A stretch of 64,000 bases of DNA, from NCBI RefSeq assembly GCF_026011715.1, contig NZ_BRVM01000008.1, positions 1 to 64,000 of the forward strand, read 5' to 3'. This document shows positions 202 through 15,837 of the stretch, piece by piece. How positions within the stretch are numbered: position 1 is the first letter of the stretch; each line of letters starts with the position of its first letter. This DNA comes from Cytobacillus sp. NCCP-133. Its GTDB lineage: Bacteria > Bacillota > Bacilli > Bacillales > Cytobacillaceae. The position numbers were made by a program, and so were the translations under genes. The notes beneath the pieces are model-generated. The model searched no databases. It had not been told where the DNA came from and saw nothing but the letters and a program-made list of their open reading frames with translations.

Positions 202-243
202 GGGGTCCCGCCAACATTTCGGAAATTTTGTACGCTAAGCAAA
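202..243 (+). repeat. Left terminal inverted repeat of the Tn3-family element
   Basis: 42 bp beginning GGGGT. It matches the reverse complement of 9164-9205 except at positions 6 and 8 of the repeat. It is flanked outside by TAATA at 197-201. Confidence 0.93.
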
Positions 244-301
244 ATTCGACACAAAAAAAGCCAAATACCTGTACGTTAAGGAATTTGGCTTACGCTATTG
301 G

Positions 302-3250
302 TTAGTTTTTATTTAAGGGTCTTAGTGAATTAGCTGGTAATCTATTTGAATCAAATTTATATTCTCCAAGAAAATTAATATGTTCCCATCCTAACGGTGA
401 AATGTGTGGAATTAATTCTTCTTTTAGGACATTATTTTTCTTAAATTCCTTTGTCACTTCACTTAAATACACAGTATTCCATACGCTTATTGCATTAATT
501 AATATATTTAATGCACTAGCTCTTTGTAGTTGATCTTGTATCCCACGTTCTCTGAATTCACCACGTTTACCAAAAAATAAAGCTCTAGCCAATCCATTCA
601 TGGCTTCTCCTTTATTTAGTCCACGATGTATCCTTCTTCTTAATGTTTCATTCGTAATATAGTCAAGAATAAAGATTGTTTTTTCAATTCTCCCAATCTC
701 TCGAAGAGCTGTGGCTATTTTATTTTGTCTTGCATATGAACCTAATTTCCCCATGATTAATGACCCAGAAACTCTTCCTTCTCGAATTGAATGTGCCAGC
801 CTTAAGACATCATCAAAATTCTCTTTAATAACGTTTGTGTTAATCTTGCCCCGAAGTATGCCTTTTATGTTTGAAAAATCATTAGGAGAAGAAATGGTAT
901 ATAATTTTGTATCACTTATATCTCTTAGCCTTGGTGCAAAACGAAACCCCAACAAATAGCTTAATCCGAAAACTTGATCCGTGTAACCAGCCGTATCAGT
1001 GTAATGCTCTTCAATTGAAAGGTCAGATTCATGATGTAACAATCCATCTATCACATGTACAGCATCTCTTGCATTCGTATTGATAACTTTTGCATAAAAA
1101 GATGAAAACTGATCACTTGTAAAACGATAAATGGTTGTACCTTTCCCAGTTCCATAGTGCGGGTTTGAATCTGCATGTAACGATGATACTCCAACAGGGA
1201 CACGCATACCATCTGAAGAAGATGTTGTCCCATCTCCCCAATATGTAGCTAAAGATAGACGGTGCTGATAATTTACCAGTGTGGCTTGAGCGCGAGTCAT
1301 AGCATCTTCATGTAATCTCCATTGCATAACATTGGCCATCTGGCGATATGAAATATCAGGAGTTGCTTCTGCCATTTTAGTTAATCCAATATTCGTCCCC
1401 ATCGCCATTAAGGTAGCCATTACAATAGATTTCTCCTCACCTTTAGGTGGCTGATTAGAAGAAGCGTGAATAAATGACTCTTCAAATCCAGTCCATTCAG
1501 CAACTTCCATTAATAAATCCGTAAGTTTAACTCTTGGAAGCATATTATAAAGAGATAAACTGAAATTTCTAGCTTCTTCAGGAGTATCTGCTTGTAGTCT
1601 CTCAACATGTATCTTTTGTTTCTCAATATTAATACCTTCAACTTTATCAATATTGTTGGAAATCCATTGAAGTTTCGTATTTAAAGTTTCACATCTTTCC
1701 TGTATATACTGTTCAAAACTTACATTAACAGCTATATTAGTCCCTTGACTCTTTGCTTTTCCCCAATCATCCTTTGACACTAAATATTCTTCAAAATCCT
1801 TATGTAATCGACTACCCTCAACCCAAACATCACCAGAACGGATATAGTTTTTGAGTTCTGTTAAGGCAGCCATTTCGTAATATTGACGGTTAATGTTACC
1901 CTCATCATCAAAAACATGTTTTTGCCAACGTTTAGGAACAAAACTCAAAGGTGATCCTTCAGGAAGTTTTCTTTTTCCAGAATCATTTAACTCACGTATG
2001 GTATCTAATGCCTTCAATAAAGACTCTGCTGATTTAGTAGATTTAAACTCTAAAGAATCTAACAGGATTGGAGTATATTTCCTTAAATAGTTATATCGAG
2101 TTTTTATTAAATCGAGATAATCATAATCCATTGGTCTTGATAATAATTTAGCTTCTTCAATTGATTCTACAATTTTCTCCCAAGGCATTACTTTCTCTAG
2201 TGCCACATAAGGATCAATTTCTTCCTCTTTGGCTTTAATTAAAGCCGCTCCTATATCTGCGTAATGCACAACTTTTTCATTTACTGACTTTCCATTTTGT
2301 TTTTGCATCTCTTCTTGAGTTTTTCTGCCTTTTGCTTGTAACACCATCATTTGTCTATCATGAATTTCAATGGCATGGTCAGTTAAATCTTGGGAAAGAG
2401 TGATTAAGTGAGCCACTAATAATGCATATCTTTTATCTTCTCTAAATCTTCTAAAAGAATGGGGTTCATATCTTGCCCCAATTCGTGCTAGTTGTAAAAG
2501 TCTATTAGGATGTATTAATGCCGTATCGGCCGTAATATTCATTTCTTTAATGTACTTTAATCTTTTTGTGACCTTTAAAAAAGATTCTGGTGAAGACTGT
2601 CCGGGAATCTCCCGGAGCCAAGCTAATTGAGTTTTATTATTGTTTACCGTTAAATCAATCAACTTTTCTAGTTCATGCTTATGTCTTTCAGATAGATTAC
2701 TTGTTAGTATGGAGTATATTTTTTTCTCTGCACGTGTTCTTGCCAACCAGACCATTCTCTCAATGGTTGGTATTGCAGGAAGGATTACTTTTTCCTTTCT
2801 TAATAAATCTATTGCAGTACGTACAAGATACATAGCATTTCCATTTTCTAATGCGGATTTTAAAAGAGCATTAGAAACCGTGCGATAATCACTGTTGTTA
2901 AAGTTTCTATATCCATATAATTGGCGTATTTCTTCTAAATGCTCACGCCTTGTTGTATCACGTTGAGCATATGAAGAGTAAACATCAGGATCTACATTAA
3001 TTTGATTTGCTATATATTTAATAAGGTTATCGGGTATCTCTAAAATATTAATTAAAGTGCAACCGGGGTTTCTAAGAATGCATAATTGAAGTGCGAACCC
3101 CAATCGATTATGATCTCTTCTATGATGATTAATAACATCAATATCATAATCCGATAGACTGTAATAAGAAGTAAACTCAAATTCTGATAAATTATTAAGG
3201 TTTAAAATTTCCTTTCTTTGTTCCGGTGTCAGCAGTTCTTTTACACTCAA
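302..3250 (-). CDS. tnpA: Tn3-family transposase TnpA
   Basis: 982 residues, the usual size for a Tn3-family DDE transposase, which binds the terminal repeats and carries out replicative transposition through a cointegrate. An N-terminal DUF4158-type region (through about residue 165) is followed by the long Tn3 DDE domain; segments typical of the family are visible near the C-terminal third, such as GDGTTSSSDGMR, HYGTGKGTTIYRF and HYTDTAGYTDQVFG. No frameshift or truncation is seen. It lies 36 bp downstream of tnpR on the same strand, so the two are probably co-transcribed. The start at 3250 is the first in-frame ATG after a usable purine-rich site. Confidence 0.96.
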   Translation of the reverse strand: MSVKELLTPEQRKEILNLNNLSEFEFTSYYSLSDYDIDVINHHRRDHNRLGFALQLCILRNPGCTLINILEIPDNLIKYIANQINVDPDVYSSYAQRDTTRREHLEEIRQLYGYRNFNNSDYRTVSNALLKSALENGNAMYLVRTAIDLLRKEKVILPAIPTIERMVWLARTRAEKKIYSILTSNLSERHKHELEKLIDLTVNNNKTQLAWLREIPGQSSPESFLKVTKRLKYIKEMNITADTALIHPNRLLQLARIGARYEPHSFRRFREDKRYALLVAHLITLSQDLTDHAIEIHDRQMMVLQAKGRKTQEEMQKQNGKSVNEKVVHYADIGAALIKAKEEEIDPYVALEKVMPWEKIVESIEEAKLLSRPMDYDYLDLIKTRYNYLRKYTPILLDSLEFKSTKSAESLLKALDTIRELNDSGKRKLPEGSPLSFVPKRWQKHVFDDEGNINRQYYEMAALTELKNYIRSGDVWVEGSRLHKDFEEYLVSKDDWGKAKSQGTNIAVNVSFEQYIQERCETLNTKLQWISNNIDKVEGINIEKQKIHVERLQADTPEEARNFSLSLYNMLPRVKLTDLLMEVAEWTGFEESFIHASSNQPPKGEEKSIVMATLMAMGTNIGLTKMAEATPDISYRQMANVMQWRLHEDAMTRAQATLVNYQHRLSLATYWGDGTTSSSDGMRVPVGVSSLHADSNPHYGTGKGTTIYRFTSDQFSSFYAKVINTNARDAVHVIDGLLHHESDLSIEEHYTDTAGYTDQVFGLSYLLGFRFAPRLRDISDTKLYTISSPNDFSNIKGILRGKINTNVIKENFDDVLRLAHSIREGRVSGSLIMGKLGSYARQNKIATALREIGRIEKTIFILDYITNETLRRRIHRGLNKGEAMNGLARALFFGKRGEFRERGIQDQLQRASALNILINAISVWNTVYLSEVTKEFKKNNVLKEELIPHISPLGWEHINFLGEYKFDSNRLPANSLRPLNKN

Positions 3251-3286
3251 GTTAGATCATTCCTTATAGATAATTTTGGTATAAGT

Positions 3287-3841
3287 CTAATTTACTTTGT
3301 CTAAGTATCTATACAGTGAGGTTTTACTGATTCCCGTTGCTTCTGTAATTTGATTAATAGTATAATCCTTACTTTTATACATTTTTATCGCCATTTCTAC
3401 TTTATCTTTTTTCTTTGTAGGTCTACCACCTTTTCTTCCTCTGGATCTTGCTGCTTGAAGTCCGGACTTTGTTCTTTCGCTAATAATATCTCGTTCTAAT
3501 TCGGCAATGCTTGCCATAGTACGAAAGAAAAACTTTCCCATTGCTGTTGAAGTATCAATATTGTCGTTAATTGAGATGAAATCTACTTCTAATTCATTGA
3601 ATAATTCACTAAGCTCAATTAGATGTTTTGTAGAGCGCGAAATACGATCAAGTTTATATACAACAATTTTGTCCCCACTGCGTAATACTTTAAGAAGCTC
3701 TTCTAATTGAGTTCTATCTTTTCTAGTTCCAGATAATTTTTCTTTATAGATTTTTTCTACTCCAAACCGTGTTAGTGAATCAATTTGCATATTCAAATTT
3801 TGTTCTTCTGTACTCACACGCGCATAACCGAAAATCATCAT
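3287..3841 (-). CDS. tnpR: Serine resolvase TnpR of the Tn3-family element
   Basis: 184 residues. The N-terminal catalytic domain of small serine recombinases is complete: GYARVSTEEQN carries the nucleophilic serine, with the YKLDRISRS arginine motif and the ELERDIISERT E-helix region. The C-terminal helix-turn-helix (about residues 140-182, GRPTKKK to ISKTSLYRYL) binds DNA. Its job is to resolve the cointegrate made by TnpA at the res site just upstream. It is first in the tnpR-tnpA unit. The ATG at 3841 or the next one at 3838 could be used. Confidence 0.95.
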   Translation of the reverse strand: MMIFGYARVSTEEQNLNMQIDSLTRFGVEKIYKEKLSGTRKDRTQLEELLKVLRSGDKIVVYKLDRISRSTKHLIELSELFNELEVDFISINDNIDTSTAMGKFFFRTMASIAELERDIISERTKSGLQAARSRGRKGGRPTKKKDKVEMAIKMYKSKDYTINQITEATGISKTSLYRYLDKVN

Positions 3842-3874
3842 TCATCACCTGCAAAAGTTAGTTATGAACTTATT

Positions 3875-4030
3875 TTAGCACCAAAAACGGTATTGAAAAT
3901 AAAAAATGTTACTTTGATATTGGAAATGAGTTTTGGACCTCTAATCTAGAAAAAAAGGGTTCATTTAATATCTTCAATCTAAAGTTCCATAAACGTCCGT
4001 TTTTGATACCATAACCGGTAAATACTACTC
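3875..4030. other. Probable res site of the transposon
   Basis: The space upstream of tnpR contains an inverted pair of related sites: CCAAAAACGGTATTG near 3881-3895 and CCGTTTTTGATACC near 3999-4012, with a further ATAACCGG beside the second. Resolvase sub-sites lie directly upstream of tnpR in this family, and the pairing of diverged half-sites fits that. Exact sub-site limits cannot be set by eye. Confidence 0.5.
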
Positions 4031-4098
4031 AGGTAATAATGCATTAGTATTATATCTTTATAGTCTAATTGGATTATTTACAAATTTTTACTTAAAAT

Positions 4099-4165
4099 TT
4101 GTTGATTTCAGAATATTATTATAATAATATTGGTTTGTAAGTATTTCCTATTATGGGAGGTGAAT
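4099..4165 (+). promoter_or_regulatory. Probable promoter and ribosome site of the cargo operon
   Basis: A very AT-rich stretch ends in TATAAT at 4120-4125, a likely -10 box; a good -35 box at ideal spacing is not evident. GGGAGGTG at about 4155-4162 sits 8 bases before the ATG at 4171, a strong ribosome site that supports translation of the tiny peptide gene. Confidence 0.5.
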
Positions 4166-4170
4166 ACATA

Positions 4171-4260
4171 ATGAGATTCGAAGAGCGTAATGTATACGTT
4201 TGTGCCCCTGGTACAAAGCGAAATGTTTATGTTTGTGCACCTGGTACGAAACGTAAATAA
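4171..4260 (+). CDS. Putative RiPP precursor peptide with tandem NVYVCAPGTKR repeats
   Basis: 29 residues: a six-residue lead MRFEER, then NVYVCAPGTKR twice in a row, then a final Lys. At DNA level the two 33-bp copies differ at six positions, all synonymous, so the peptide sequence is being conserved. A strong ribosome site (GGGAGGTG) lies 8 bases upstream. It heads an operon with a Cys-decarboxylase-type flavoprotein, an exporter and a methyltransferase, which is why I call it a modified-peptide precursor. The basic TKR ends look like protease sites that would release two identical copies. It has no lanthipeptide-like Ser/Thr-rich core and the Cys is internal. I do not recognise the family. 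Confidence 0.8.
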   Translation: MRFEERNVYVCAPGTKRNVYVCAPGTKRK

Positions 4261-4271
4261 TTAGATTTAGA

Positions 4272-4307
4272 TAAAAGGTTTGGAAGAGATTCCAGGCCTT
4301 TTATTCA
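4272..4307 (+). terminator. Hairpin between precursor and flavoprotein genes (possible partial terminator)
   Basis: AAAAGG...GGAA-GAGA-TTCC...CCTTTT forms an imperfect stem followed by a short T/A run. In many peptide operons such a leaky hairpin keeps precursor transcript above the levels of the enzymes; that role here is inferred. Confidence 0.5.
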
Positions 4308-4324
4308 ATTACGGAGGGTTTAGT

Positions 4325-4879
4325 ATGGAATACAAGAAAATATTAATTGGAATATCAGGTTCAATCGGAGCTGTAGAAATACATAGTTACTTAACTGAGA
4401 TTCATCAAAGATTTAATTGTTCTATGAATATAATTATGACAGAAAGTGCTAAAAAAATTGTTAATCCTGATTCTCTAAAGTACTTTGTAGATGGATATGT
4501 ATTTGATAATATGTTTGATTCATATTCTGAATTTAAGATTCCTCATGTCCACTTACCAAATTGGGCTGATGTCTTAATTATTCTTCCTGCTACAGCAAAT
4601 ATTATCGGAAAAATTGCTAATGGGATAGCAGATGATTTATTAGCAACTACGGCAATGGCTGCTACTTGTCCGGTTATTATAGTTCCTAATACAAATGAAC
4701 ATATGTACAACCGTCGTGCAGTGCAGAGAAATATTCAGGAATTAAAGGAAGATGGGTATATATTTATAGAGCCAGAAGGCGAGGGAGTGCAATTATCAAC
4801 AAAAAAGAAAATCAAAGGGGCTATGCCTTCACCTAAAGAGTTTGTATCACAATTAGAAGGGATGATTTTGCATGCCTGA
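4325..4879 (+). CDS. HFCD-family flavoprotein, EpiD/LanD-type peptidyl-cysteine decarboxylase
   Basis: 184 residues from the ATG at 4325, which follows ACGGAGGG. The homo-oligomeric flavin-containing Cys decarboxylase fold is clear: GISGSIGAVE at the N-terminus, HVHLPNWAD with the probable catalytic His near residue 80, then PATANIIGKIANGIADDLL, the FMN-binding PxxANT-like motif, and PNTNEHMYN in place of the usual PAMNxxMW. EpiD and relatives oxidatively decarboxylate a C-terminal Cys of a peptide to an enethiol. The length suits a peptide decarboxylase rather than bifunctional Dfp. The neighbouring precursor has Cys at residues 11 and 22, so trimming after Cys would be needed first. A PPC decarboxylase or UbiX-like role is less likely in this setting. 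Confidence 0.85.
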   Translation: MEYKKILIGISGSIGAVEIHSYLTEIHQRFNCSMNIIMTESAKKIVNPDSLKYFVDGYVFDNMFDSYSEFKIPHVHLPNWADVLIILPATANIIGKIANGIADDLLATTAMAATCPVIIVPNTNEHMYNRRAVQRNIQELKEDGYIFIEPEGEGVQLSTKKKIKGAMPSPKEFVSQLEGMILHA

Positions 4880-6092
4880 AGCTGTTGTCAAAAAAAATGT
4901 AAATGTTCAACTTGATACGAGATTCAATCTAATTTTAGTGGGTATTCTATTTTCTCGTATTGGGACAAATATCTATATTTTGGCATTACCATGGGTTGCT
5001 TACAATTTGACAGGATCAGCCGTTATCATGGGAACAGCATTTGCAGTCGAAATGCTTCCTTTTGTCCTCTTGCTTCCTTTTGGTGGTGTACTTATAGACC
5101 GATTTGATAGAAGAAAACTGATGATTTTTGCCGACATTACAAGGACCATATTGGTGTTAAGCATTCCGATTATGTTTTGGATGGACGCTTTACTCATTCC
5201 TTCAGTTTTCATTATTGCTTTCCTTGTTTCTACATTGTCTTTTTTTGTAGACGTTCCTTTACAAGCTATTATCCCTCAGATAGTTTTAAAGGAGAATTTA
5301 ACAAAAGCAAATGCTCGGATTCAATTTATAGAGAATCTTTCCAGAACTGCCGGACCACTTCTTGGTGGAGCCTTGATAGGCTTGTTGGGAGTGTATAATT
5401 CTTTACTAATTAATAGCTTTTTTTACCTTGTGATGGCCCTATGTATCTTCATGATAGGTCAAATTCCCCGTATTAAAGAAAACGAAGATGTAGGGAAAAT
5501 TTGGGATGACATTAAAAAAGGGTTTTTGTATTTATGGAAACGCTGGGATCTACGTGTTATTGCATGCATTAGTGTTTTATCTAACTTTGGAATAGCACTA
5601 GTGATGTCGACTCTAGTTTATTACCTAAGAGATATTCTTAAAGTAAGTGCAACTTACTCAGGTATAGTCTTTGCTGCTATAGGAATTTTTGGTATGCTTG
5701 GTAGCTTAGTGGTAGAACCTTTGGTCAAAAAGTTCAAAAGAGGATATGTAATAAGTTTTCTGCCTATATTAGGCGGTGGCATCGGGGCCTTTATTGTGGC
5801 ATTATTCCCTAATTGGATAACTACAGCTATCGGTTTTGGGCTTTGGGGAGGATGCATTACCACTTTGAGCATACTGCTAAATACTTACAAACAGGAAAGT
5901 ATAGAAAATGACCTTTATGGCAGAGTTGAAGGTTCACTTACATCCATTTCATATTTATCTATACCACTTGCAGGTTTAATAGGAGGACTTGCAATTCAAG
6001 GTGTGGGAAGCGTGTTTACTTATCTAATCGCTGGTTGTTCAGTTATTCTTGCAGGCGTTTTATCTTTCTTTTCGCCGTTACGCAAGATATAG
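4872..6092 (+). CDS. MFS efflux transporter, probable peptide exporter
   Basis: 406 residues with about 12 membrane helices. It is of the drug-efflux (DHA3/MefE-like) type: an RIGTNIY start, the loop DRFDRRKLM between helices 2 and 3 matching MFS motif A, and a second-half NTYKQESIENDLYGRVEG signature. It overlaps the end of the flavoprotein gene by 8 bases, so the two are translationally coupled. In this operon the likely cargo is the finished peptide product, giving export or self-protection; the substrate is inferred. Confidence 0.85.
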   Translation: MPEAVVKKNVNVQLDTRFNLILVGILFSRIGTNIYILALPWVAYNLTGSAVIMGTAFAVEMLPFVLLLPFGGVLIDRFDRRKLMIFADITRTILVLSIPIMFWMDALLIPSVFIIAFLVSTLSFFVDVPLQAIIPQIVLKENLTKANARIQFIENLSRTAGPLLGGALIGLLGVYNSLLINSFFYLVMALCIFMIGQIPRIKENEDVGKIWDDIKKGFLYLWKRWDLRVIACISVLSNFGIALVMSTLVYYLRDILKVSATYSGIVFAAIGIFGMLGSLVVEPLVKKFKRGYVISFLPILGGGIGAFIVALFPNWITTAIGFGLWGGCITTLSILLNTYKQESIENDLYGRVEGSLTSISYLSIPLAGLIGGLAIQGVGSVFTYLIAGCSVILAGVLSFFSPLRKI

Positions 6093-6106
6093 AAGGAGAT
6101 TAAATT

Positions 6107-7981
6107 ATGATTCAAGACCTATATACGAACGGCAATAGTAAATTTATTTTAAATAGTTATCAACCTATCTCTCAGGACTCTCCTAGGCATATATCTTATT
6201 GGATTGAGGGAAATGTAAGCATAGAAGAGTTGAAATCGGATATAATTCGTTCTTTTCCTGAGAAAAAGATTATTTTTTACACAAAATTAAACCGAATGGA
6301 ACGCTCTCTATTAAAACCCTTCAGGGATTTCCTTTTGGAACACAAATCGTCATGGATGGATTGGGATTGGGTAAAGGAATATAAATATGAACTTCAAACC
6401 TTATTTCCCAGTAGTAATGATGAAGATCGCCCTGATATTTTTAGCGTTTCTTGGGGCTGGTCTGAAGTAAGACTCAATAGAGAAATCCATTGGGGATTTC
6501 GTTTGGTTCATTTTGTCTCAAGGATTATTAGTAAGCTAGCAGAAATCCAGCCTGTTTCTATATTAATAGAGGACTTGCAAAATTCAGACCGCATTTCTAT
6601 ATATTGTATTCATCATCTAGCTTATAACTTAAAAGTTCAAAATTTAACGTTTATCCTAAACGTAAAGGGTTATTACTCACTGAACTATAAACTGGATAAT
6701 GGAAAAGGATTTACTAAGCTACTAAACAATTTAAAGGCAAAGATTGACCCAGTAATTATTAACGGAAGTGACTTGGTTATACAAGAAACTAAAACTTATT
6801 GTGCTTCAGATGATAGTTTAGAAGATAATGTTAACACATTTATACACACATTAAAGTCAAGTGAGGTTGAATATAATGAGGTATTGGAAAAGCTTCACAG
6901 CTCACTACATTTATTTAATCTTGAAAACGTATTGCTTTTAGGAGATATAATTCTGAATAACCTAAACAGGTTTACTTTAGAGCAACAAAAAAGACTTAGT
7001 TATGAGGTATGGAGACATATCGGAATCGCTCAGGTATTTATGGATGACTACAATAATGCGATACAATCTTTCATAAAAATGAAAGAGTACACAGAATCAG
7101 TTGGTGAGAAAGTTAAAGCTTGTCACTTAATTGCTACGATATATGGAAAGAGACTTAACAACATTGATGGGGCCAAGGAATATATACAAAAAGGAATGAA
7201 TATAGCCCAAAATAGCGATGATTTTCGTACCTTATACGAAAAAGGCTGGCTCTATAACTATGTTGCATACGTTTCATATTCTTTAGAAAAAGACTTCGAT
7301 AAAGCTTTGAACTATGTTAATCAGGCAGTAGAATTTCTTAAACCGTTTAAGAATTACACTCCGGATAGTAAAATTATGGACGAAATCGGGAATCCAATAT
7401 CTGCCGAACGCTTACTAGGTAACCTAACAGCAAATATTTCTTACCTTTATTTTTATAAAGGAGACTATCAGCAAGCACTAGAAGCATGGAAATCCCTTGA
7501 AAAAGATATTGTAGATGCCCCTGAAGTATTCAAGAAAGAGTATTTTTACTTTGAAGGCAATTTGTTTTTGCATTTAGGAATGTTTAGTCAAGCAGAAGAA
7601 TCTCTAAAGAAATCATATATTATTTGCGAAAAGTATAATGATATTTTCCATCAGGAGATAGTATCTCGTAAACTAGGATATACTCACTTTTTAATGGGAA
7701 AATATGAGGTATCCATGACTTATTACAAAAATTCATTTCAACTAAAGGAACTGTCAGGTAAAGCAATTACGAATAAAGATTATCAATCTCTTGTACTATG
7801 TCTTTTGTTATCTGGAGATATTACATCAGCTAACAAAAAAGTTGAAGAACTTAAAGGGTTTATCAGTCAAGAATTTGTTGATTTTTATGAAAACTCAAAG
7901 AGCTTGTTTAATAATGCTAATAAATTTTTAGAAGAAGGACCTGTTATACTACTAGAGCCTTTCCCGATGATGAATCTTTAA
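6107..7981 (+). CDS. TPR-repeat protein with a degenerate NTPase-like N-terminal half
   Basis: 624 residues, soluble. Residues about 1-230 resemble the front of STAND/LuxR-type ATPases: VSILIEDLQNSDRISIYCIHHLA looks like a Walker B/sensor segment (usual form EDLHWAD), yet I see no Walker A P-loop. Residues about 290-620 are helical TPR-like repeats, for example WRHIGIAQVFMDDYNNAIQSF, LYFYKGDYQQALEAWKSL, LFLHLGMFSQAEESLKKSY and YTHFLMGKYEVSMTYYKNS. TPR domains in Firmicutes often bind short peptides (RRNPP family), so it may bind the precursor or product as a scaffold, sensor or immunity factor. No helix-turn-helix is evident. It starts 14 bp after the MFS gene with an AAGGAG site. Confidence 0.75.
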   Translation: MIQDLYTNGNSKFILNSYQPISQDSPRHISYWIEGNVSIEELKSDIIRSFPEKKIIFYTKLNRMERSLLKPFRDFLLEHKSSWMDWDWVKEYKYELQTLFPSSNDEDRPDIFSVSWGWSEVRLNREIHWGFRLVHFVSRIISKLAEIQPVSILIEDLQNSDRISIYCIHHLAYNLKVQNLTFILNVKGYYSLNYKLDNGKGFTKLLNNLKAKIDPVIINGSDLVIQETKTYCASDDSLEDNVNTFIHTLKSSEVEYNEVLEKLHSSLHLFNLENVLLLGDIILNNLNRFTLEQQKRLSYEVWRHIGIAQVFMDDYNNAIQSFIKMKEYTESVGEKVKACHLIATIYGKRLNNIDGAKEYIQKGMNIAQNSDDFRTLYEKGWLYNYVAYVSYSLEKDFDKALNYVNQAVEFLKPFKNYTPDSKIMDEIGNPISAERLLGNLTANISYLYFYKGDYQQALEAWKSLEKDIVDAPEVFKKEYFYFEGNLFLHLGMFSQAEESLKKSYIICEKYNDIFHQEIVSRKLGYTHFLMGKYEVSMTYYKNSFQLKELSGKAITNKDYQSLVLCLLLSGDITSANKKVEELKGFISQEFVDFYENSKSLFNNANKFLEEGPVILLEPFPMMNL

Positions 7982-7994
7982 TGGAGTTGATTAC

Positions 7995-8924
7995 ATGCTA
8001 TTACCATGCATAAAATGCTATTGTTACGCGGATCAAACCTTCACAGTCAGTATAGGAAATAGGGAAATAAAAGAGAGTATCTGTTCTTCATGTAAAGAGT
8101 CAATAGAGGATGAATTTGAAAACTTGATAATGAAATGGACTATGGATTTCTTTGGAGAAGAAATACTTTTTAAAAAGAAATCCGCATATTCAACAATTTA
8201 TGTATCTGAAAGCGATGAGCAAAGAAATCTAAGGTTTCTTACTTCCTTTCAATCTGGAATACTAAAAAATGAAGAAGGAACTTCTACACCTTATTTAAAC
8301 AGTTTTTTACTTGGACCTATTTTTTTAAATAGAGAGATTAAAAAAATTCTATGTATAGGGTTAGGTACAGGGTACCTGGTTAAAACGCTAAGAAGAATTT
8401 TCCCTGAAATTGAGATTGACGTAGTTGAAATAGACGAAGAGGTCTACAATGTAGCTAAAAATTATTTCAATTTTAGCCAAGATGGTAAGACAGAGGTACA
8501 TATTGTGGATGCTTTTAACTTTGTTGAAAATGCGAATAGTTCAGACTATGATTTAATAGCGTTAGATGCTTATGACGGAAATGAAATACCATCGCATCTT
8601 GATACAATCGAATTCTACGAAGAACTTAGTCGTATCTTAATGGCGGACGGAATTCTAATTACGAACTTGCATGGACGCTTAACAGGGGAACATTCTATAG
8701 GTTTTAGAAACTCGTTTGATAAAATGGAAGTTGTTTTTAAACACAGTATCTTAATTCCTTCTCCTAATGAATGGGAAATGAACATACTGACTCTGTCTTC
8801 TAATAGTCAGATTGACAAGATTAGTGCGGATTCTAAAGTGTTACCAGCAGAGTTAATATCATTAATTGATCCTTGGTTAAACACTAGACAATATAATGAA
8901 AAAGACATTGAAGAAAAGGCATAA
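7995..8924 (+). CDS. Spermidine-synthase-like methyltransferase with Cys-rich N-terminus
   Basis: 309 residues. The core is a Rossmann methyltransferase/aminopropyltransferase of the spermidine synthase class: CIGLGTGYLVKTLR (motif I), DVVEIDEEVYNVA (acidic end of beta-2), and LDAYDGNEIPSHLDTIEFYEEL, which matches the DAY...PxHLxTxEF stretch of spermidine-synthase-like proteins. The N-terminal about 35 residues hold CIKCYCY and ICSSC, a probable zinc knuckle not usual in SpeE. As last gene of the peptide operon it may alkylate the peptide (for example a thiol, amine or carboxylate) with a SAM-derived group; the reaction is inferred. Confidence 0.75.
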   Translation: MLLPCIKCYCYADQTFTVSIGNREIKESICSSCKESIEDEFENLIMKWTMDFFGEEILFKKKSAYSTIYVSESDEQRNLRFLTSFQSGILKNEEGTSTPYLNSFLLGPIFLNREIKKILCIGLGTGYLVKTLRRIFPEIEIDVVEIDEEVYNVAKNYFNFSQDGKTEVHIVDAFNFVENANSSDYDLIALDAYDGNEIPSHLDTIEFYEELSRILMADGILITNLHGRLTGEHSIGFRNSFDKMEVVFKHSILIPSPNEWEMNILTLSSNSQIDKISADSKVLPAELISLIDPWLNTRQYNEKDIEEKA

Positions 8925-8929
8925 TCCAA

Positions 8930-8975
8930 AAAAGCCCTGATTATTCTGCTTACCGTAGAGAAATCAGGGTTTTCA
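8930..8975 (+). terminator. Terminator of the cargo operon
   Basis: GCCCTGATT (8934-8942) pairs with AATCAGGGT (8962-8970), followed by TTTT. It directly follows the methyltransferase stop. The remaining span up to the transposon end at 9205 shows no gene. Confidence 0.75.
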
Positions 8976-9163
8976 CTTTCCAGTATTTCTTAAACATATA
9001 CTATTTACGTATTATCAAACAGAACTAGGAAATGTTCTGGGACATCAATACCGTTCAACCCATAATAAATACTGTTTGAGGTGTTTACATAACATGGACC
9101 TTTGTTGAGTAAGAATAGGAAAATTGATCATTTAAGAGAAAAAATCACTTTTTTTATCCTGAA

Positions 9164-9205
9164 TTTGCTTAGCGTACAAAATTTCCGAAATGTTGGCTGT
9201 ACCCC
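9164..9205 (-). repeat. Right terminal inverted repeat of the Tn3-family element
   Basis: 42 bp ending CCCC, followed outside by TAATA at 9206-9210. It matches the left end at 40 of 42 positions. Between 9211 and 9472 I see only a hairpin (AAGTGGA...TCCACTT with a T run, about 9294-9338) and the terminator below. Confidence 0.93.
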
Positions 9206-9395
9206 TAATAGTAAAAGTCCTTTCTTAATTAATTGAAGTGGCTTAATGATAAGAATTCGCGTCTACTTTGAGAGAAAAGTCAAAAAAAATTAAACAAGTG
9301 GAAAAACCGAGTCGCAATTCTCCACTTGCTTTTTTTATAGGGGCTTATCGGACAGCTTCTGCTAAAGGGCTTGTTTGTATTTCTACTACATAGAA

Positions 9396-9472: not shown

Positions 9473-10108
9473 TTAAATAAACATTGAATCTATTCTTTCT
9501 TTATCATATTGTAAGATCCAGCTGTTGTATTTTTGGTATAAAGGGTGAATTAATTCTTTAGAACTTGCAACAATATCTACTCCACAATCATCATATTGAT
9601 TAAAAATTATTCCTTTTTGAAGGTTCACAAAATAACATTCTTCATCAGATTTTATTTTAGGTTGGATGTTAAAATCCTTATTTCCGATAGACATTAGAAG
9701 TTTTTTATAGTAAATGTCTTTTTTATTACATTCCAAATAAAAACGATTAGTTTCATTTTCTGGAAAGTTTAAATCACAATTAATAATTTTTTTATATTTT
9801 AGTTTGTATCTTAATTCTTTGTTATTAAGATACTTTTGTAAAAATTTTGTTGAGTTTTTATTTCCCCTTTTATCAACTATTAAATGAAAAATATCTGTAT
9901 CACAGAATATTTCCTCGAACAAAGTAATAGAGCGAAAATATACTTGTTTCATATATTTATTTTCATCGACTTCGTAAGGATTACCTAATTCATACCGAAT
10001 ACCGAAGTTAACATTATAAAAAAGTTGATTGTCTAATGGAACATCCTTAAATTTTTCTTTAAATTTAAGTTCGAATATATCTATTCTCATAACGAATTTT
10101 ATTATCAT
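9473..10108 (-). CDS. DUF3885 protein, probable immunity protein of the adjacent RHS toxin
   Basis: 211 residues, soluble and charged, with the features of DUF3885: FGIRYELGNPYE, YFRSITLFEEIF near the N-terminus, KYLNNKELRYKLKYKK in the middle, and CYFVNLQKGIIFNQYDDCGVDIVA followed by KYNSWILQYD at the C-terminus. It follows the RHS gene by 74 bp on the same strand, the usual place for the cognate immunity gene of a polymorphic toxin. That it neutralises this toxin is inferred from position and family habit. The sequence is much more AT-rich than the RHS core, typical of swapped toxin-immunity tips. Start is uncertain: 10108, or an in-frame ATG at 10090. Confidence 0.75.
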   Translation of the reverse strand: MIIKFVMRIDIFELKFKEKFKDVPLDNQLFYNVNFGIRYELGNPYEVDENKYMKQVYFRSITLFEEIFCDTDIFHLIVDKRGNKNSTKFLQKYLNNKELRYKLKYKKIINCDLNFPENETNRFYLECNKKDIYYKKLLMSIGNKDFNIQPKIKSDEECYFVNLQKGIIFNQYDDCGVDIVASSKELIHPLYQKYNSWILQYDKERIDSMFI

Positions 10109-10182: not shown

Positions 10183-13100
10183 TTATTTTGACAGTATTCT
10201 TCCCTTTCCATCAAGTGATGCTTTTCTCTTTCCATTTTTATCTTTCAACTTCCATTTTCTTCCTCCATGACCAGCGGTATCTTTTTCAATTGTCCAGCCT
10301 GTCTTAGGATCTTTATATGCTGTTTTTCCTTTTACTTTATTTTTAAACTTTCCAATATCAATACTTCCATCTGACCTTTTTAATGATTTTGGAATTGATT
10401 GGCCTGTACTAAATAACGGTTTTACCTTTTTATAAAGCCAAGTACCTCCCTTAATTGCTAATCCACCTATTACAAGAGCACCTGTTGAGAGTAATGCTAT
10501 TTGACCAATCCCAGGTATAAAATACAATGCAACAGCATAATTTCCATCTGGATCTACGTATATTACTGGATTATTCTTCGTGTAGGCATATAAATTTAAA
10601 GATTGTGGATCATTTGCAAATCCATGGAAGGAATCTCTTGTAATAAAACGACCTACTTCTGCATCATAGTAGCGAGCCATCAAATAATACAAATTTGTTG
10701 ACTCATCGTATCGGTAACCCGCATAACGATATGGGTTAGCTGATGCCATTGTACCAGTATGAGAAATGACGTTCCCCCATGCGTCATAGTGATATTCGGC
10801 AACAATAGATCCGTTAGAATCTGTTAGTGCAGTGACATCTCCATGCCCATTTACATGATAATAATAAGTTTTTCCGCCTTTTGTCATGGTTACTGGGTTA
10901 CCAATAGCATCCCATGTATATTCAGCAGTAATACTATTGTTAGCATCCGTCTCCGCGATAACTTTATCACCATTGTACTGGAAATATGTTGTTCCAGCTG
11001 GTGTTGTCATGCTCGTACGTTTACCATCATGATCATATGTAAACTTCGCAAGGGAATTACCAGTCTTGTCTTTTACTTCGATCAGTTGGTTTTCCACATC
11101 GTAAATATACGTTTTTTCACCGTCATTTGTCAGGTTACCGTTCGGATCATACGAATATGCCTCTTCATTGACGCTTGTCAATTCGTTACCAGCATTATAC
11201 GTATAGGTCGTCGTGGTTGTTGTTCCTTTTGCTTCGATTTTTTTGGTGCGGTTACCTACCTTATCGTATTCATAGGATACCACAGTCCCATCTATTAACG
11301 TTTCTTTGGTTAACTGGTCGAGAGCGTCATACTCATACGATACTGTCCCTTTGTTTGTAACAACACTGGTATGATTGTTGTTGGGATCGTAATTGTATTT
11401 ATACGAATCTAATACAGTTCCGTCCTTCTTGTAGTTTTTTACTTCGCTTAGTAGGTTACTTTCATTATACTGAAAAGCAGTATAGGCGTTATTCGCCCGT
11501 CTAACAGATGTCACGTTTCCACGCTCATCGTAGACGTACTTTGCCATGTTTTGATTATTTCGTGATAGAACAACAAGCTGATTCAGCTTGTTATAAGCAA
11601 ATTCCGTTGATACGTTTGTCGATCCAGCCGTGAACTTGATAGATGTTAGGTTATCGTTTGGATCGTAATTATATTCGGTTTTAATCGATCCTTTGGATTC
11701 TTGAGTTAAACGATTATTTTTATCATACGTGAAATTAGTGGTTTTACCCGTATTATCTGCATACCAAGCGATATTTCCATTTGCATCGTAGCTCAATCCC
11801 CACTTTTTAATACCATTATGGTAGATACCGTCCATCCGATTCAATGCATTATAGGTATAGGATACGGTGTCACCTTTCGGGTAAATCCGTTTTTTTGTAT
11901 TCCCATTTTTGTCATAATCCAATTGAATCACTTGATTTAATGGATTGGTAATCTTGGACACGAGGTTTAACTCGTTATAATCATACTTCGTTAGGTTATT
12001 TTTGGCATCCGTCACCGTTGTTCGGTTTCCGTTTCCATCGTAACCATAAGACGTTTCCCCAAGCTTAGCATCGGTCACTTTTGTTAACAAATTACGTTTG
12101 TCGTAAGCAAAAGAAGTCGTTTGGTTTTTACCATCTTTTATGCTAGTTTGATTACCAACAGCATCATAACCGTAGGTAACAGTCTTTCCAAGTGGATCCT
12201 TGACACTGGTTTCATAGTTACTTCCTGCATCGTATGAATGAGAGGTAATGGATGACCCAAGTTCAAGACGCATCGAATCAAACCAAGTAGTGCCTGTTTG
12301 ATTCCAATAATAGTAATGTACGTCTATAGAGTTAAAGGCTTTTTTCGGTTTCACTTCTGCTGCGACATGCTGCCAATCGGATTCTGTCTTACTGAAATCA
12401 TTAGCATAATCCCAATCAACGGTCCCATCGGTATAGTTAATCGCTACTTGTAAATTGTAGTACCCGCCGTTCGGGTTTGCTCCGACCTGTTTCGACCAAC
12501 CGGAAAGGGTTAATTTTGTATTTTGATCTCCAGATATATTGAGGTGCTGTTTGAGCGATTTATTCTTCCCGGCTTCTCCCGTCATCTGGAAGGATGATTG
12601 GCCGATATAGACATTGTCATCTTCAGGATTCACATTTTGAACGACTTTATCATTTACCGATAGATTACTACTAGTTTCCCAGAAAGCAGGTTTTCCAGCT
12701 TGAACTCTTTCAAAGCTTGAATTTTCAACAAGGTTATAAGCAGCAAGGGTTGAACCTTTTTCCACTTGAATACCATCGAAATATGCAGTTCCAGTTCCTG
12801 CATTTAGTCCGACTGCTACTGAAATTTTTGTTGTACCAGCTGGTACAGTATCGATAACAGCTTGTAGCCTCGTCCAATCATGAGTCCCTTTTAGTTCAGA
12901 CGAATATTGTACTTCTCCCATAGGATTATTTTGATCATCGAAAAATTCAAATTTTAATAGAGCCGTACCTGTCGTGTTGCTTGTTTTGACATAGGCACTT
13001 GCGATATATTTTTCTCCAGCTGTATACTCAAATTTTTCTGAACGGATAATAGCCCAACTAGTTGGATTGGAAATACTAACTGCTTTCCCTCCAAATTTGC

Positions 13101-15837
13101 CACTGCCTGTCCATGCAAACGTTGCTGTGCTGCCTGCACCTTTTAACTGATCCCAATTATCAGCCCAGTTATCACTATTCTTATCCCATTCAAAGCTTGG
13201 ATTCGCCAATAAATTGTCTGCCGCAGACATTGGATGAGTATCGTAAAGGAGATTTCCCTTGGAATCATATCGACTCACCGATGTCTGTACGTTTGGATCT
13301 GTCGATTCGGTTTGATTGCTATTACCATCGTAATCATTTGTACTTACGTTTTGATTGAAATCTTCTTCTTTTACTAAGTTGTTTTGACTATCATATTCAA
13401 AAGTCGAATTTTGATTTTCTGGCAGCTGTACCCCTGTAATATTCCCTTTTGCATCATAGGTGTATACATAGGCTGCAGTTCCACCTGCTTTATTTGTATT
13501 CGGATCTACGACTTTTGTTAGATTATTTTTATTGTCATAAATATAGGTTGTAACTGCCTTATTGGCTGAATCTAACGGATTTTCAGTAATTTGTACAACA
13601 TTTCCATTTGCATTTGTGGTGTAGTCTACCCGCTTGCCTTCACCATCTGTCACCGAAGTGACAAGATTAGTCGTGTCATAAGAATATGTTGTTTTACTGG
13701 TTTCCACTGCATCATTGATCGTTATCGGACGGCTAATGCTTTTAACACGATCTGTCGTATCATATTCAACGGTTGTTTTAATGCTGCGGGCATCCGTGAT
13801 TCCTGTAATATTATGATCCGTATCATACGAAAAAGTTGTCGCCTTTCCTTCTGGATCCGTTACTTTTGTGAGGTTTCCAGAAGTATCGTATTCATATTTT
13901 GTTGCTCGGCCTGCAGGATCTGTTACATTTGAAACATATCCGTTTGTGCCATATCCAATAGTCGTTTCCCGTCCGGAAGCATCTCGAACTTTTGTTAATT
14001 TTCCAGAAGCGTCATACACGAAAGTGGTTGTATTATCATTTGTATCAACAATCGAGCTGATTTTTCCATCCTTGTTAAAGTTCGTTTTTGTGCCGTCGGT
14101 TTCAGTGATCGTATACGTTCCGTCCCCATTTTTAACTAAATCAAGGTAAATACCACCGGCAGCTTCATATCCGCCTCCGATTTTTTCTCCAAAAATATGC
14201 CGCGTGTTATCTTCATCAATTAAAGTGATCGGTCCATTCCCTGAATCAACAATTAACGGTTCTAGATTCGTAATCCATCCATACCCGAATAAACCTTTAA
14301 AAGAAGATTTTCGGCTATTGTATGTTCGATTTAAGCTTACTTCTGGACCACGTCCCGGAATTACCACATCTGTCTTTTGTAATACAAGGTTCCCGTTTGC
14401 CGGGTTTACTCCGTCATCCGTAGTTGACCAAAATGATTCCATACCAATAGCTTCAACCGTATAGTTAATGGTAATTCGCGGTGTATTATTTCCACTATTG
14501 ACTGAATTGAAAGAACGATAGGGGGAAGATGTTTCATTTTGCTGTTTTAACATCATTCCATAGTTGGCTTGGACACCGTTATACCAGTCTTTAGCCAATT
14601 TTGTAATATCCCATTGCCAATATGCATTAACTTTATTATCTGTCGTACTAGATTCTGGTGATCCAGCAATAGAAGGCTGTGCACTCCATGTTGCATTAGA
14701 TTCTGACCAGTTACTAGTAATGCGGAATAAATCAACAGATGCCGTTGAAGTATCACTTTTTGCTTGATAGGCATTGAAAGTAGCATTTGAAATGACACTA
14801 TCGCTAGGAAGGCTAGGTAGAACAAATTGAATTAATGCACGAGTTGAACCAAAATACCCATGATATCCGGTATTCATAAAAGATTCGCTTGAAAAAGCTG
14901 AACTTGGATAACTGCTTCCTATAAACGAATCTCGAATAACATTCCAATCGTTAATGGTTGGATCAATCGTTACTGGATATTGTGTCTTTGGATCTTGTAA
15001 GAATTCTTGATCGGCGATGACATCAACAAATGTTTTTCCATTTTCTTTACGTAACTCAAGGGTAACCTTTTCAGAATACTTACCTTCGGCATCAGTCATG
15101 AAAGGGTTTTCGAAAAACCAGACTGGATTTTCCTTGGAATCTTTGAAAACAATAATCCCGTTTTTCTCTTTATGAGGTGTTACCCCCTTCATCTTCAGCT
15201 CAAAACTGAATGTATTTTCGTTTTGATATTGATTTAATATAATATCTTCTTTTACAGCACTACCCTGTACACGGTAATGAACATCGACGTTATCGAAAAT
15301 ACCTTTATAGGTCACATCATTATTTTTTAAAGTACCCTGTACTTTTTTTGCTTTCACTGGAACGAGGCTAATGTTCTTTTCACTCTTTTCAACTGTAACA
15401 AGATCTCCATTTCCAGTTTCTTGCGTAAACCACACCTTTTGATTATTTGCGGTATTTTCAAATTTCCCCGCTTTTTTTGTGCTTTTTTTGAGTTTATTAT
15501 CGATCTTTTTCCATTTTTTATCTGAAGGATCTTGATAAAACTGTTGTTCCATAAAGATCTCTTCGGTAAAACTTCCATCTGGGTTTAAATATCTTGTTGA
15601 ATATGGAGAACGTTTACTTGTTAACTCTAGTTTTTCTTTTGGAAGCTTATTTGGCAGTTCTCCAATATCTGCCGTTAAGTTTTCCTTTTTAGAAGACCTT
15701 TTGGCTTCACCTGGCGCTGCTTCTGCAAAGTAAGGAGCTATTAAACTAAAAATCAGGCAAAATGAGATAATAAAAGCAAAATAGCGATAGAATGATCGAA
15801 ATGCTGGCGACATGTAATATGTTTCTTCCTCTCTCAA
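10183..15837 (-). CDS. Secreted RHS/WapA-like polymorphic toxin
   Basis: 1,884 residues. Order of parts: signal peptide (hydrophobic core near residues 18-38, cut near AEAAPG); DNRLRE-type wall-associated domain (about 290-460); DUF6531-like DGVNPANGNLVL entry to the RHS barrel; YD/RHS repeats interrupted by two carbohydrate-binding-like jelly-roll modules (about 900-1150); more YD repeats; and the RHS core GYRYDESTNLYYLMARYYD...DPDG near residue 1750. A hydrophobic stretch and a basic tip of about 75 residues follow, with DTAGHGGRKWKLKDKNGKR as the likely toxic nuclease-type domain. WapA proteins deliver such tips into neighbouring cells. The signal context favours either the TTG at 15837 or the ATG at 15813. 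Confidence 0.93.
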   Translation of the reverse strand: MREEETYYMSPAFRSFYRYFAFIISFCLIFSLIAPYFAEAAPGEAKRSSKKENLTADIGELPNKLPKEKLELTSKRSPYSTRYLNPDGSFTEEIFMEQQFYQDPSDKKWKKIDNKLKKSTKKAGKFENTANNQKVWFTQETGNGDLVTVEKSEKNISLVPVKAKKVQGTLKNNDVTYKGIFDNVDVHYRVQGSAVKEDIILNQYQNENTFSFELKMKGVTPHKEKNGIIVFKDSKENPVWFFENPFMTDAEGKYSEKVTLELRKENGKTFVDVIADQEFLQDPKTQYPVTIDPTINDWNVIRDSFIGSSYPSSAFSSESFMNTGYHGYFGSTRALIQFVLPSLPSDSVISNATFNAYQAKSDTSTASVDLFRITSNWSESNATWSAQPSIAGSPESSTTDNKVNAYWQWDITKLAKDWYNGVQANYGMMLKQQNETSSPYRSFNSVNSGNNTPRITINYTVEAIGMESFWSTTDDGVNPANGNLVLQKTDVVIPGRGPEVSLNRTYNSRKSSFKGLFGYGWITNLEPLIVDSGNGPITLIDEDNTRHIFGEKIGGGYEAAGGIYLDLVKNGDGTYTITETDGTKTNFNKDGKISSIVDTNDNTTTFVYDASGKLTKVRDASGRETTIGYGTNGYVSNVTDPAGRATKYEYDTSGNLTKVTDPEGKATTFSYDTDHNITGITDARSIKTTVEYDTTDRVKSISRPITINDAVETSKTTYSYDTTNLVTSVTDGEGKRVDYTTNANGNVVQITENPLDSANKAVTTYIYDNKNNLTKVVDPNTNKAGGTAAYVYTYDAKGNITGVQLPENQNSTFEYDSQNNLVKEEDFNQNVSTNDYDGNSNQTESTDPNVQTSVSRYDSKGNLLYDTHPMSAADNLLANPSFEWDKNSDNWADNWDQLKGAGSTATFAWTGSGKFGGKAVSISNPTSWAIIRSEKFEYTAGEKYIASAYVKTSNTTGTALLKFEFFDDQNNPMGEVQYSSELKGTHDWTRLQAVIDTVPAGTTKISVAVGLNAGTGTAYFDGIQVEKGSTLAAYNLVENSSFERVQAGKPAFWETSSNLSVNDKVVQNVNPEDDNVYIGQSSFQMTGEAGKNKSLKQHLNISGDQNTKLTLSGWSKQVGANPNGGYYNLQVAINYTDGTVDWDYANDFSKTESDWQHVAAEVKPKKAFNSIDVHYYYWNQTGTTWFDSMRLELGSSITSHSYDAGSNYETSVKDPLGKTVTYGYDAVGNQTSIKDGKNQTTSFAYDKRNLLTKVTDAKLGETSYGYDGNGNRTTVTDAKNNLTKYDYNELNLVSKITNPLNQVIQLDYDKNGNTKKRIYPKGDTVSYTYNALNRMDGIYHNGIKKWGLSYDANGNIAWYADNTGKTTNFTYDKNNRLTQESKGSIKTEYNYDPNDNLTSIKFTAGSTNVSTEFAYNKLNQLVVLSRNNQNMAKYVYDERGNVTSVRRANNAYTAFQYNESNLLSEVKNYKKDGTVLDSYKYNYDPNNNHTSVVTNKGTVSYEYDALDQLTKETLIDGTVVSYEYDKVGNRTKKIEAKGTTTTTTYTYNAGNELTSVNEEAYSYDPNGNLTNDGEKTYIYDVENQLIEVKDKTGNSLAKFTYDHDGKRTSMTTPAGTTYFQYNGDKVIAETDANNSITAEYTWDAIGNPVTMTKGGKTYYYHVNGHGDVTALTDSNGSIVAEYHYDAWGNVISHTGTMASANPYRYAGYRYDESTNLYYLMARYYDAEVGRFITRDSFHGFANDPQSLNLYAYTKNNPVIYVDPDGNYAVALYFIPGIGQIALLSTGALVIGGLAIKGGTWLYKKVKPLFSTGQSIPKSLKRSDGSIDIGKFKNKVKGKTAYKDPKTGWTIEKDTAGHGGRKWKLKDKNGKRKASLDGKGRILSK

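Follow-up and report, generated by a model that had tools for sequence, protein, structure and literature searches.

In a 64,000-nucleotide stretch of contig NZ_BRVM01000008.1 of Cytobacillus sp. NCCP-133 (here called the window), a Tn3-family element (202-9205) carries a cargo of five plus-strand genes (4171-8924), which encode a small repeat peptide, a flavoprotein, a transporter of the major facilitator superfamily (MFS), a tetratricopeptide repeat (TPR) protein and a SpeE-like protein. A preliminary description of this DNA had proposed a tight operon of this kind framed by transposon ends with a perfect 5-bp duplication. Both statements were borne out: the gene coordinates and the Pfam matches of the four large proteins (Flavoprotein, MFS_1, TPR, Spermine_synth) agree with the former, and TAATA was found on both sides of the element, the ends of which are imperfect repeats. 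The putative precursor peptide gene (4171-4260) encodes 29 amino acids (MRFEERNVYVCAPGTKRNVYVCAPGTKRK) of the form MRFEER-[NVYVCAPGTKR]x2-K, with the first repeat unit at 4189-4221 and the second at 4222-4254. A hairpin (4270-4305, plus strand, -19.9 kcal/mol, z-score -6.2) separates it from the genes of the flavoprotein (4325-4879), the MFS protein (4872-6092, overlapping the flavoprotein gene by 8 bp), the TPR protein (6107-7981) and the SpeE-like protein (7995-8924).

The 29-residue peptide matched no Pfam or NCBIfam family. With the SpeE-like protein as query, a search of genomes representing each species once recovered three loci, in Ectobacillus antri (99% identical), Bacillus badius (74%) and Fictibacillus phosphorivorans (74%), and all five cargo genes are present there in unchanged order. 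Among viral contigs, neither a relative of the SpeE-like protein nor a match to the peptide pattern was detected. The amino acids of the peptide are identical across the four genomes, bar the number of 11-residue units (two in the window and in F. phosphorivorans, one in E. antri and in B. badius), and the window and E. antri differ by the in-frame gain or loss of one unit (33 bp). For the larger proteins, the alignments with B. badius and F. phosphorivorans gave identities to the window of 88-89% (flavoprotein), 82-85% (MFS) and 63-64% (TPR). Between the two units of the window there are six codon differences, all of them synonymous and none a replacement, and thus both units have been maintained by selection. 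In the six units from the four genomes there are seven variable columns, each a third position and each synonymous, while the expected synonymous share of random point changes is 25-26%. At least 11 changes are needed across these units, and the probability of such a pattern by chance is roughly 3e-7 if the changes were independent. Because all seven variable columns are synonymous, the codon pattern indicates that the repeat peptide is a real gene product under amino-acid selection, beyond chance. The hairpin behind the peptide gene has similar counterparts in the three close relatives (z-scores -6.6, -6.6 and -4.9) and is possibly a partial terminator or a processing site; a simple promoter and terminator scan did not list it and returned fewer sites than in shuffled sequences. 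On its 5'-side, the leader of the peptide gene (4140-4175) can fold with its ribosome-binding site paired and is, as judged by eye, near-identical in the four close copies, but this fold was no better than those of shuffles (z-score -1.1).

The flavoprotein has the PF02441 fold and the features of the peptidyl-Cys decarboxylases among the homo-oligomeric flavin-containing Cys decarboxylases (HFCD). It keeps the catalytic His and the PATAN and PNxNxxM motifs; the Cys of the LACG motif, which is the reductive Cys of CoaC, is absent, and there is no fused CoaB domain, the second hallmark of the CoaC/Dfp proteins. In comparisons of a three-row profile with the PDB, MrsD ranked best (1e-32), followed by 7cfu (6e-29), an EpiD protein (4e-24) and CoaBC (7e-16). 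The preliminary description would have been contradicted by a flavoprotein grouping with Dfp or UbiX enzymes, and instead the three cargo flavoproteins in a 15-row tree formed a clade outside the six CoaC rows (100/100), with bootstrap values that had not settled. On plasmids, all 101 flavoprotein records shared less than 60% identity with the query, and the 30 that were listed include CoaBC, Phaeobacter flavoproteins and a Priestia protein within a lanthipeptide cluster. Another genome (G053, L051 8369-8947) carries a lone PF02441 flavoprotein which also lacks the ACG Cys of CoaC; alongside it, no MFS or TPR gene was recognized and no comparable minigene was seen.

The MFS protein is a probable exporter (PF07690, 3.2e-33; TIGR00900 below the cut-off). 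The TPR protein may contain a degenerate STAND/ATPase-like domain in its N-terminal half, and the best Foldseek matches of its structure model were LGN TPR complexes, with a STAND-TPR protein ranking seventh. The last gene encodes a class I methyltransferase or aminopropyltransferase of the SpeE type with an N-terminal CxxC...CxxC pattern (PF01564, 1.5e-14; NF037959 above the cut-off). Spermidine synthases lead its PDB matches (1e-14), and its PADLOC matches were a partial one to Mad2 (8.6e-14) and a marginal one to a type II methyltransferase, with zero matches for the other three cargo proteins. Its structure model (predicted local distance difference test score, pLDDT, 56) was too poor for use.

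More distant relatives of the operon were obtained with a six-row TPR profile, which at 1e-12 matched seven of the 398 genomes searched in the class: the window's own genome, G866, G885 and G856, which belong to one genus and are all genomes of this genus in the searched set, as well as G439, G760 and G400. G866, G885 and G856 carry flavoprotein, MFS and TPR genes in this order, and the encoded proteins are 54-57%, 49-51% and 30-32% identical to those of the window, respectively. A relative of the SpeE-like protein was not found in these three genomes by a search that was run without a positive control. Instead of the gene for the 29-residue peptide, the three flavoprotein genes are preceded by 4, 5 and 4 minigenes, which are 8-15 codons long and all have their own ribosome-binding site. 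They encode MRDPVYLC, MASYEPIFIC, MIVVTDPIFIC and MDDQVWVC in the first operon, MRDPVYLC, MSYEPIFLC, MVVSDPIFLC, MVVTDPIFIC and MQDQVWVC in the second, and MERNVKVGDINIYLC, MKDPVFVC, MAQTFEPIFIC and (GTG)KDQVWVC in the third. All 13 end in [VI][YFW][VIL]C followed by the stop codon. Scanning the three stretches for open reading frames (ORFs) of 5-30 amino acids led by a Shine-Dalgarno (SD) sequence yielded 15 candidates. Of these, 13 end in [YFW][VIL]C, and the remaining two start with GTG and overlap the first minigene. Shuffling that preserved dinucleotides (2000 trials per stretch) gave 0 to 0.001 motif-ending ORFs per stretch, and in a control covering both strands of the whole window none of 61 SD-led ORFs ended in [YFW][VIL]C. 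These numbers should be read with the motif and the SD rule having been chosen after the sequences were seen, and with minigenes within and between three related genomes that are not independent of each other. By eye, an inverted repeat lies between the minigenes and the flavoprotein gene in all three distant operons.

The core N-VYVC of the window peptide matches the ending pattern of the minigenes. The Cys is directly C-terminal in all 13 minigenes, whereas in the mobile peptide it is internal, with VYVC followed by APGTKR. Taken together, each of the seven operons found has a gene-encoded precursor beside tailoring enzymes, conserved in relatives, as is typical of ribosomally synthesized and post-translationally modified peptides (RiPPs). 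The expectations of the preliminary description can be judged by these data: the close copies show that the five genes are not confined to one element, recurring neighborhoods of flavoprotein, TPR and MFS genes do exist, and none of the seven operons lacks a peptide gene encoding [VI][YFW][VIL]C. A SpeE-like gene is present in only four of them.

The TPR family also occurs in other settings. A TPR profile run against 397 genomes of the order gave matches in seven, which comprise the four close copies at full length and three members of another operon type; the single TPR protein as query in the phylum added one other weak match (G439), and tblastn gave zero TPR matches on plasmids. In G090, G044, G249 and G439, the TPR relatives reside in operons with FMN reductase, methyltransferase, aminotransferase, epimerase and M16-like genes, named by Pfam for G090 and by eye for G044, G249 and G439. 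Inspection of the neighborhoods showed an MFS gene in G090, G044 and G439, and an upstream peptide of 33-39 amino acids, ending in Trp each time, was read in G090, G249 and G439. The aminotransferase of this operon type (L058 4102-11669 with L062; L064; L059; L074) is GntC-like, and among the frames read there was no peptide aminoacyl-tRNA ligase (PEARL). Their product is possibly derived from Trp and set free by the M16 protein. In G760 (L077), the neighbors of the TPR genes are several LanB-like frames, one of which was tested and matched Lant_dehydr_N, and an FAD-oxidase-like frame; this locus is probably a PEARL-type cluster. G400 has a TPR gene, an MFS gene and two overlapping frames which, as judged by eye, are similar to Lant_dehydr_N. 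From these contexts we infer that the TPR family may serve enzymes acting at the C-terminus of a small peptide.

Among the relatives of the SpeE-like protein, for which neighboring genes were named by eye, the match in G266 belongs to a polyamine gene row. Four loci (G795, G769, G836, G782), read among the 42 other genomes matching this protein, lie beside scpA/scpB-like genes, and none of them has a flavoprotein or TPR gene. In G836 (L049 7743-10162) and G782 (L050 6950-9138), the chromosomal SpeE-like gene directly adjoins an MFS gene, and the two may form a separate exporter-modifier pair.

We consider it likely that the Tn3-family transposon carries an operon for RiPP-like biosynthesis, in which the flavoprotein oxidatively decarboxylates ultrashort peptides with almost no leader at their C-terminal Cys. 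The RiPP-like character is supported by the independent comparative evidence described above. According to the proposed pathway, the very short precursor would be translated, and the hairpin behind its gene would lower read-through into the enzyme genes. The TPR protein would bind the small peptide and present its C-terminus, as suggested by its fold and by its recurrence beside small-peptide genes. For the mobile version, a host protease would first have to cut after the Cys, between Cys and Ala of VYVC-APGTKR. The flavoprotein would then oxidatively decarboxylate the C-terminal Cys in [VI][YFW][VIL]C to an enethiol, a step to which the enzyme family, the sequence motifs and the 13 minigenes point; EpiD accepts C-terminal aromatic/aliphatic-X-Cys sequences. 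As a guess, the SpeE-like enzyme might cap the enethiol, which is unstable, and S-methylation would be the simplest route. The MFS protein would export the product. Because the operon is transposon cargo with an exporter, we favor a secreted competitive or signaling peptide as product. The proposal is best called known enzyme chemistry on unusual substrates, within the RiPPs. In the open-access literature, a scope that leaves most subscription journals outside, no description of this peptide system was found.

Several observations weigh against this reading. The Cys of the mobile peptide is internal and requires an extra cut, but the element contains no protease gene. The structure model of the TPR protein is poor (pLDDT 62), and the position of the flavoprotein between the LanD-type and the CoaC rows of the tree is not resolved. 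EpiD-type enzymes are mainly known from aminovinyl-cysteine (AviCys) pathways, in which a dehydro residue traps the enethiol. Three of the seven operons lack a SpeE-like gene, and an enethiol with neither trap nor cap would be unstable. According to published work (PMC12291118), C-terminal enethiols are unstable and have to be protected. A capping step in the mobile operon is plausible on these grounds, and the three operons that have no such gene are puzzling. Another possibility is an AviCys-type pathway with its genes dispersed in the genome, a dehydratase encoded elsewhere forming dehydroalanine or dehydrobutyrine and the enethiol closing the ring. Consistent with it, besides the HFCD-type enzyme, six of the 13 minigenes (MASYEPIFIC, MSYEPIFLC, MIVVTDPIFIC, MVVSDPIFLC, MVVTDPIFIC, MAQTFEPIFIC) have a Ser or Thr 5-6 residues before the Cys (X5-X6), and so does the second-unit Cys of the two-unit precursor. 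This spacing is within the T/S-X2-6-C pattern that, as stated for a survey of PF02441 flavoproteins, was required of peptides of 20-100 amino acids ending in Cys (PMC11162475). However, the other seven minigenes and the one-unit precursors have no suitably placed Ser or Thr. The element also encodes no dehydratase. Nor was one recognized beside the distant operons, where the longer frames were inspected by eye and Pfam was applied to the flavoprotein, MFS and TPR proteins of one operon. An AviCys pathway is therefore unlikely here, and we give very little credence to its split form.

The other explanations leave the decarboxylated peptide aside or assign it a different role. If the flavoprotein were a CoaC/Dfp paralogue of coenzyme A or cofactor metabolism, the peptide would be incidental. 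Its raw identity of 41-43% to CoaC, compared with 31% to the Priestia LanD, and the CoaBC model as top NCBIfam match (166.6 bits, below the cut-off of 219.7) speak for this and count against the decarboxylase assignment. Nevertheless, such a paralogue is highly improbable in view of the missing CoaB domain and ACG Cys, the placement outside the CoaC rows, the preference of the PDB comparison for MrsD and the minigenes ending in Cys; moreover, a further CoaC-like protein of the host is encoded in a 417-amino acid frame (G000:C4:197190-197687). The small ORFs could alternatively be regulatory leader peptides, on which stalled ribosomes would open the hairpin and thereby turn on expression of a resistance operon of exporter and modifying enzyme, with the erm or mef leaders as model. 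A short ORF directly on the 5'-side of a stable hairpin and followed by an MFS gene, a close Tn3 relative with a mer resistance cargo and the strict conservation of the peptide would fit such a switch. It is, however, hard to reconcile with four to five tandem minigenes in the distant operons, each with its own SD and all with one C-terminal Cys motif, with two copies retained by selection in the mobile form and with a Cys-decarboxylase-type enzyme encoded alongside, and we regard it as improbable. Finally, the modified peptide might be a cell-to-cell signal and the TPR protein its intracellular receptor, following the logic of RRNPP-like receptors, which is compatible with the translation, decarboxylation and export steps proposed above. 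TPR superhelices bind peptides, the Foldseek ranking agrees with this function and the peptide sequence is invariant, but Pfam detected no DNA-binding or Rap-like domain, and the family recurs with unrelated peptides and other tailoring enzymes, so that a receptor function appears rather unlikely.

Among the known systems, the RiPPs with AviCys or AviMeCys made by LanD/EpiD enzymes (epidermin, mersacidin, thioamitides) share with the operons described here the PF02441 HFCD-type enzyme, a Cys preceded by an aromatic and an aliphatic residue, which is C-terminal in the minigenes, and peptide genes and a transporter in one operon. In contrast to them, the cargo operon has no dehydratase, kinase-lyase or cyclase gene, ring-spaced Ser or Thr residues occur in only six of the 13 minigenes, the precursors have 8-29 amino acids with almost no leader, and a TPR protein is the partner. 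Microcin C-like operons resemble the cargo in having a tiny precursor gene with a terminator after it, an MFS exporter and a SpeE/MccD-like enzyme, but no MccB-like adenylating enzyme is encoded among the five cargo genes. Biarylitides differ from the cargo system in their P450 cross-linking and are not known to involve a flavoprotein or a TPR protein. Their ultrashort precursor genes with minimal leader, which resemble those described here, are reported to evade gene detection (PMC13417212). Ammosamide clusters contain a TPR protein, AmmC2 (PMC12424672), and PEARL-type systems further resemble the cargo operon by modification at the peptide C-terminus and by the distant TPR relative of G760 beside a Lant_dehydr_N gene. 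They differ in that no LanB-like ligase or PEARL is encoded by the element, where the target is a ribosomally encoded Cys. BipC of biphenomycin biosynthesis, called a TPR protein in the literature, was discarded as an arginase (PMC12707348).

The vehicle of the operon is a Tn3-family element, with a transposase of the DDE type (302-3250, minus strand; PF01526, 7.6e-156; NF033527 above the cut-off), a serine resolvase (3287-3841, minus strand; PF00239, 5.3e-45), terminal inverted repeats (202-258 and 9149-9205) and the target-site duplication TAATA (197-201 and 9206-9210). It starts with GGGG at 202 and ends with CCCC at 9205, and with the duplication counted in, the repeat arms comprise 64 nucleotides and are 84% complementary. 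The DNA of the transposase-resolvase backbone is 91% identical to a Listeria innocua plasmid element with a mer operon as cargo. The window element has the transposase, resolvase, terminal repeats and 5-bp duplication of Tn3-family resistance transposons but differs from them by its probable biosynthetic operon. In E. antri, the copy shares its ends with the window element but not the flanks, and a target duplication is absent. In F. phosphorivorans, the operon is flanked by the 55-bp repeats (98% complementary) of another Tn3-type element, likewise with no target duplication. The transposase of this element (L061 6925-9854) is split into two frames, and the element may no longer be self-mobile. 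The B. badius copy adjoins a Mu-type transposase gene (rve, Mu-transpos_C) and an AAA gene, both assigned by Pfam, and a resolvase-like frame recognized by eye, an arrangement known from Tn552-like elements; a search for its ends did not find them. Near the three distant operons, inspection of the longer frames by eye, with no family search, revealed no transposase. Since the close copies reside in different element types, the five-gene cargo has been associated with more than one vehicle. Of the initial idea of a new modified-peptide system moving by Tn3 transposition, the peptide system is supported, while the methyltransferase drops out of the conserved core and Tn3 becomes one vehicle among others. 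Outside the transposon, a 1884-amino acid frame with RHS/YD-like repeats recognized by eye (10183-15837) adjoins a gene for a DUF3885 protein (9473-10108), and the two look like a polymorphic-toxin/immunity pair.

If the proposed pathway is correct, Cys-decarboxylase chemistry would extend to peptides with no dehydratase in their operon. A more tentative generalization, for which we would put the chances slightly short of even, is that flavoprotein, TPR and MFS proteins define a new RiPP class. Its arrays of 8-15-codon minigenes would encode peptides with a C-terminal Cys that is converted to a free or S-capped enethiol, a TPR/STAND-like adaptor shared with C-terminal-Trp and PEARL-type systems would replace leader recognition, and the transposon version would be a minigene turned into a repeat precursor. 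By the survey rule as given in PMC11162475, such substrates would be passed over, the minigenes because they are too short and the mobile peptide because its Cys is not the last residue. We offer instead a search for PF02441, TPR and MFS genes with SD-led minigenes ending in [YFW][VIL]C. Recognition of leaderless precursors becomes testable, as one TPR family occurs in several operons with peptides that are seemingly modified at the C-terminus. As for the transposon, the position taken by mercury-resistance genes in a close relative is occupied here by a probable peptide-biosynthesis operon.

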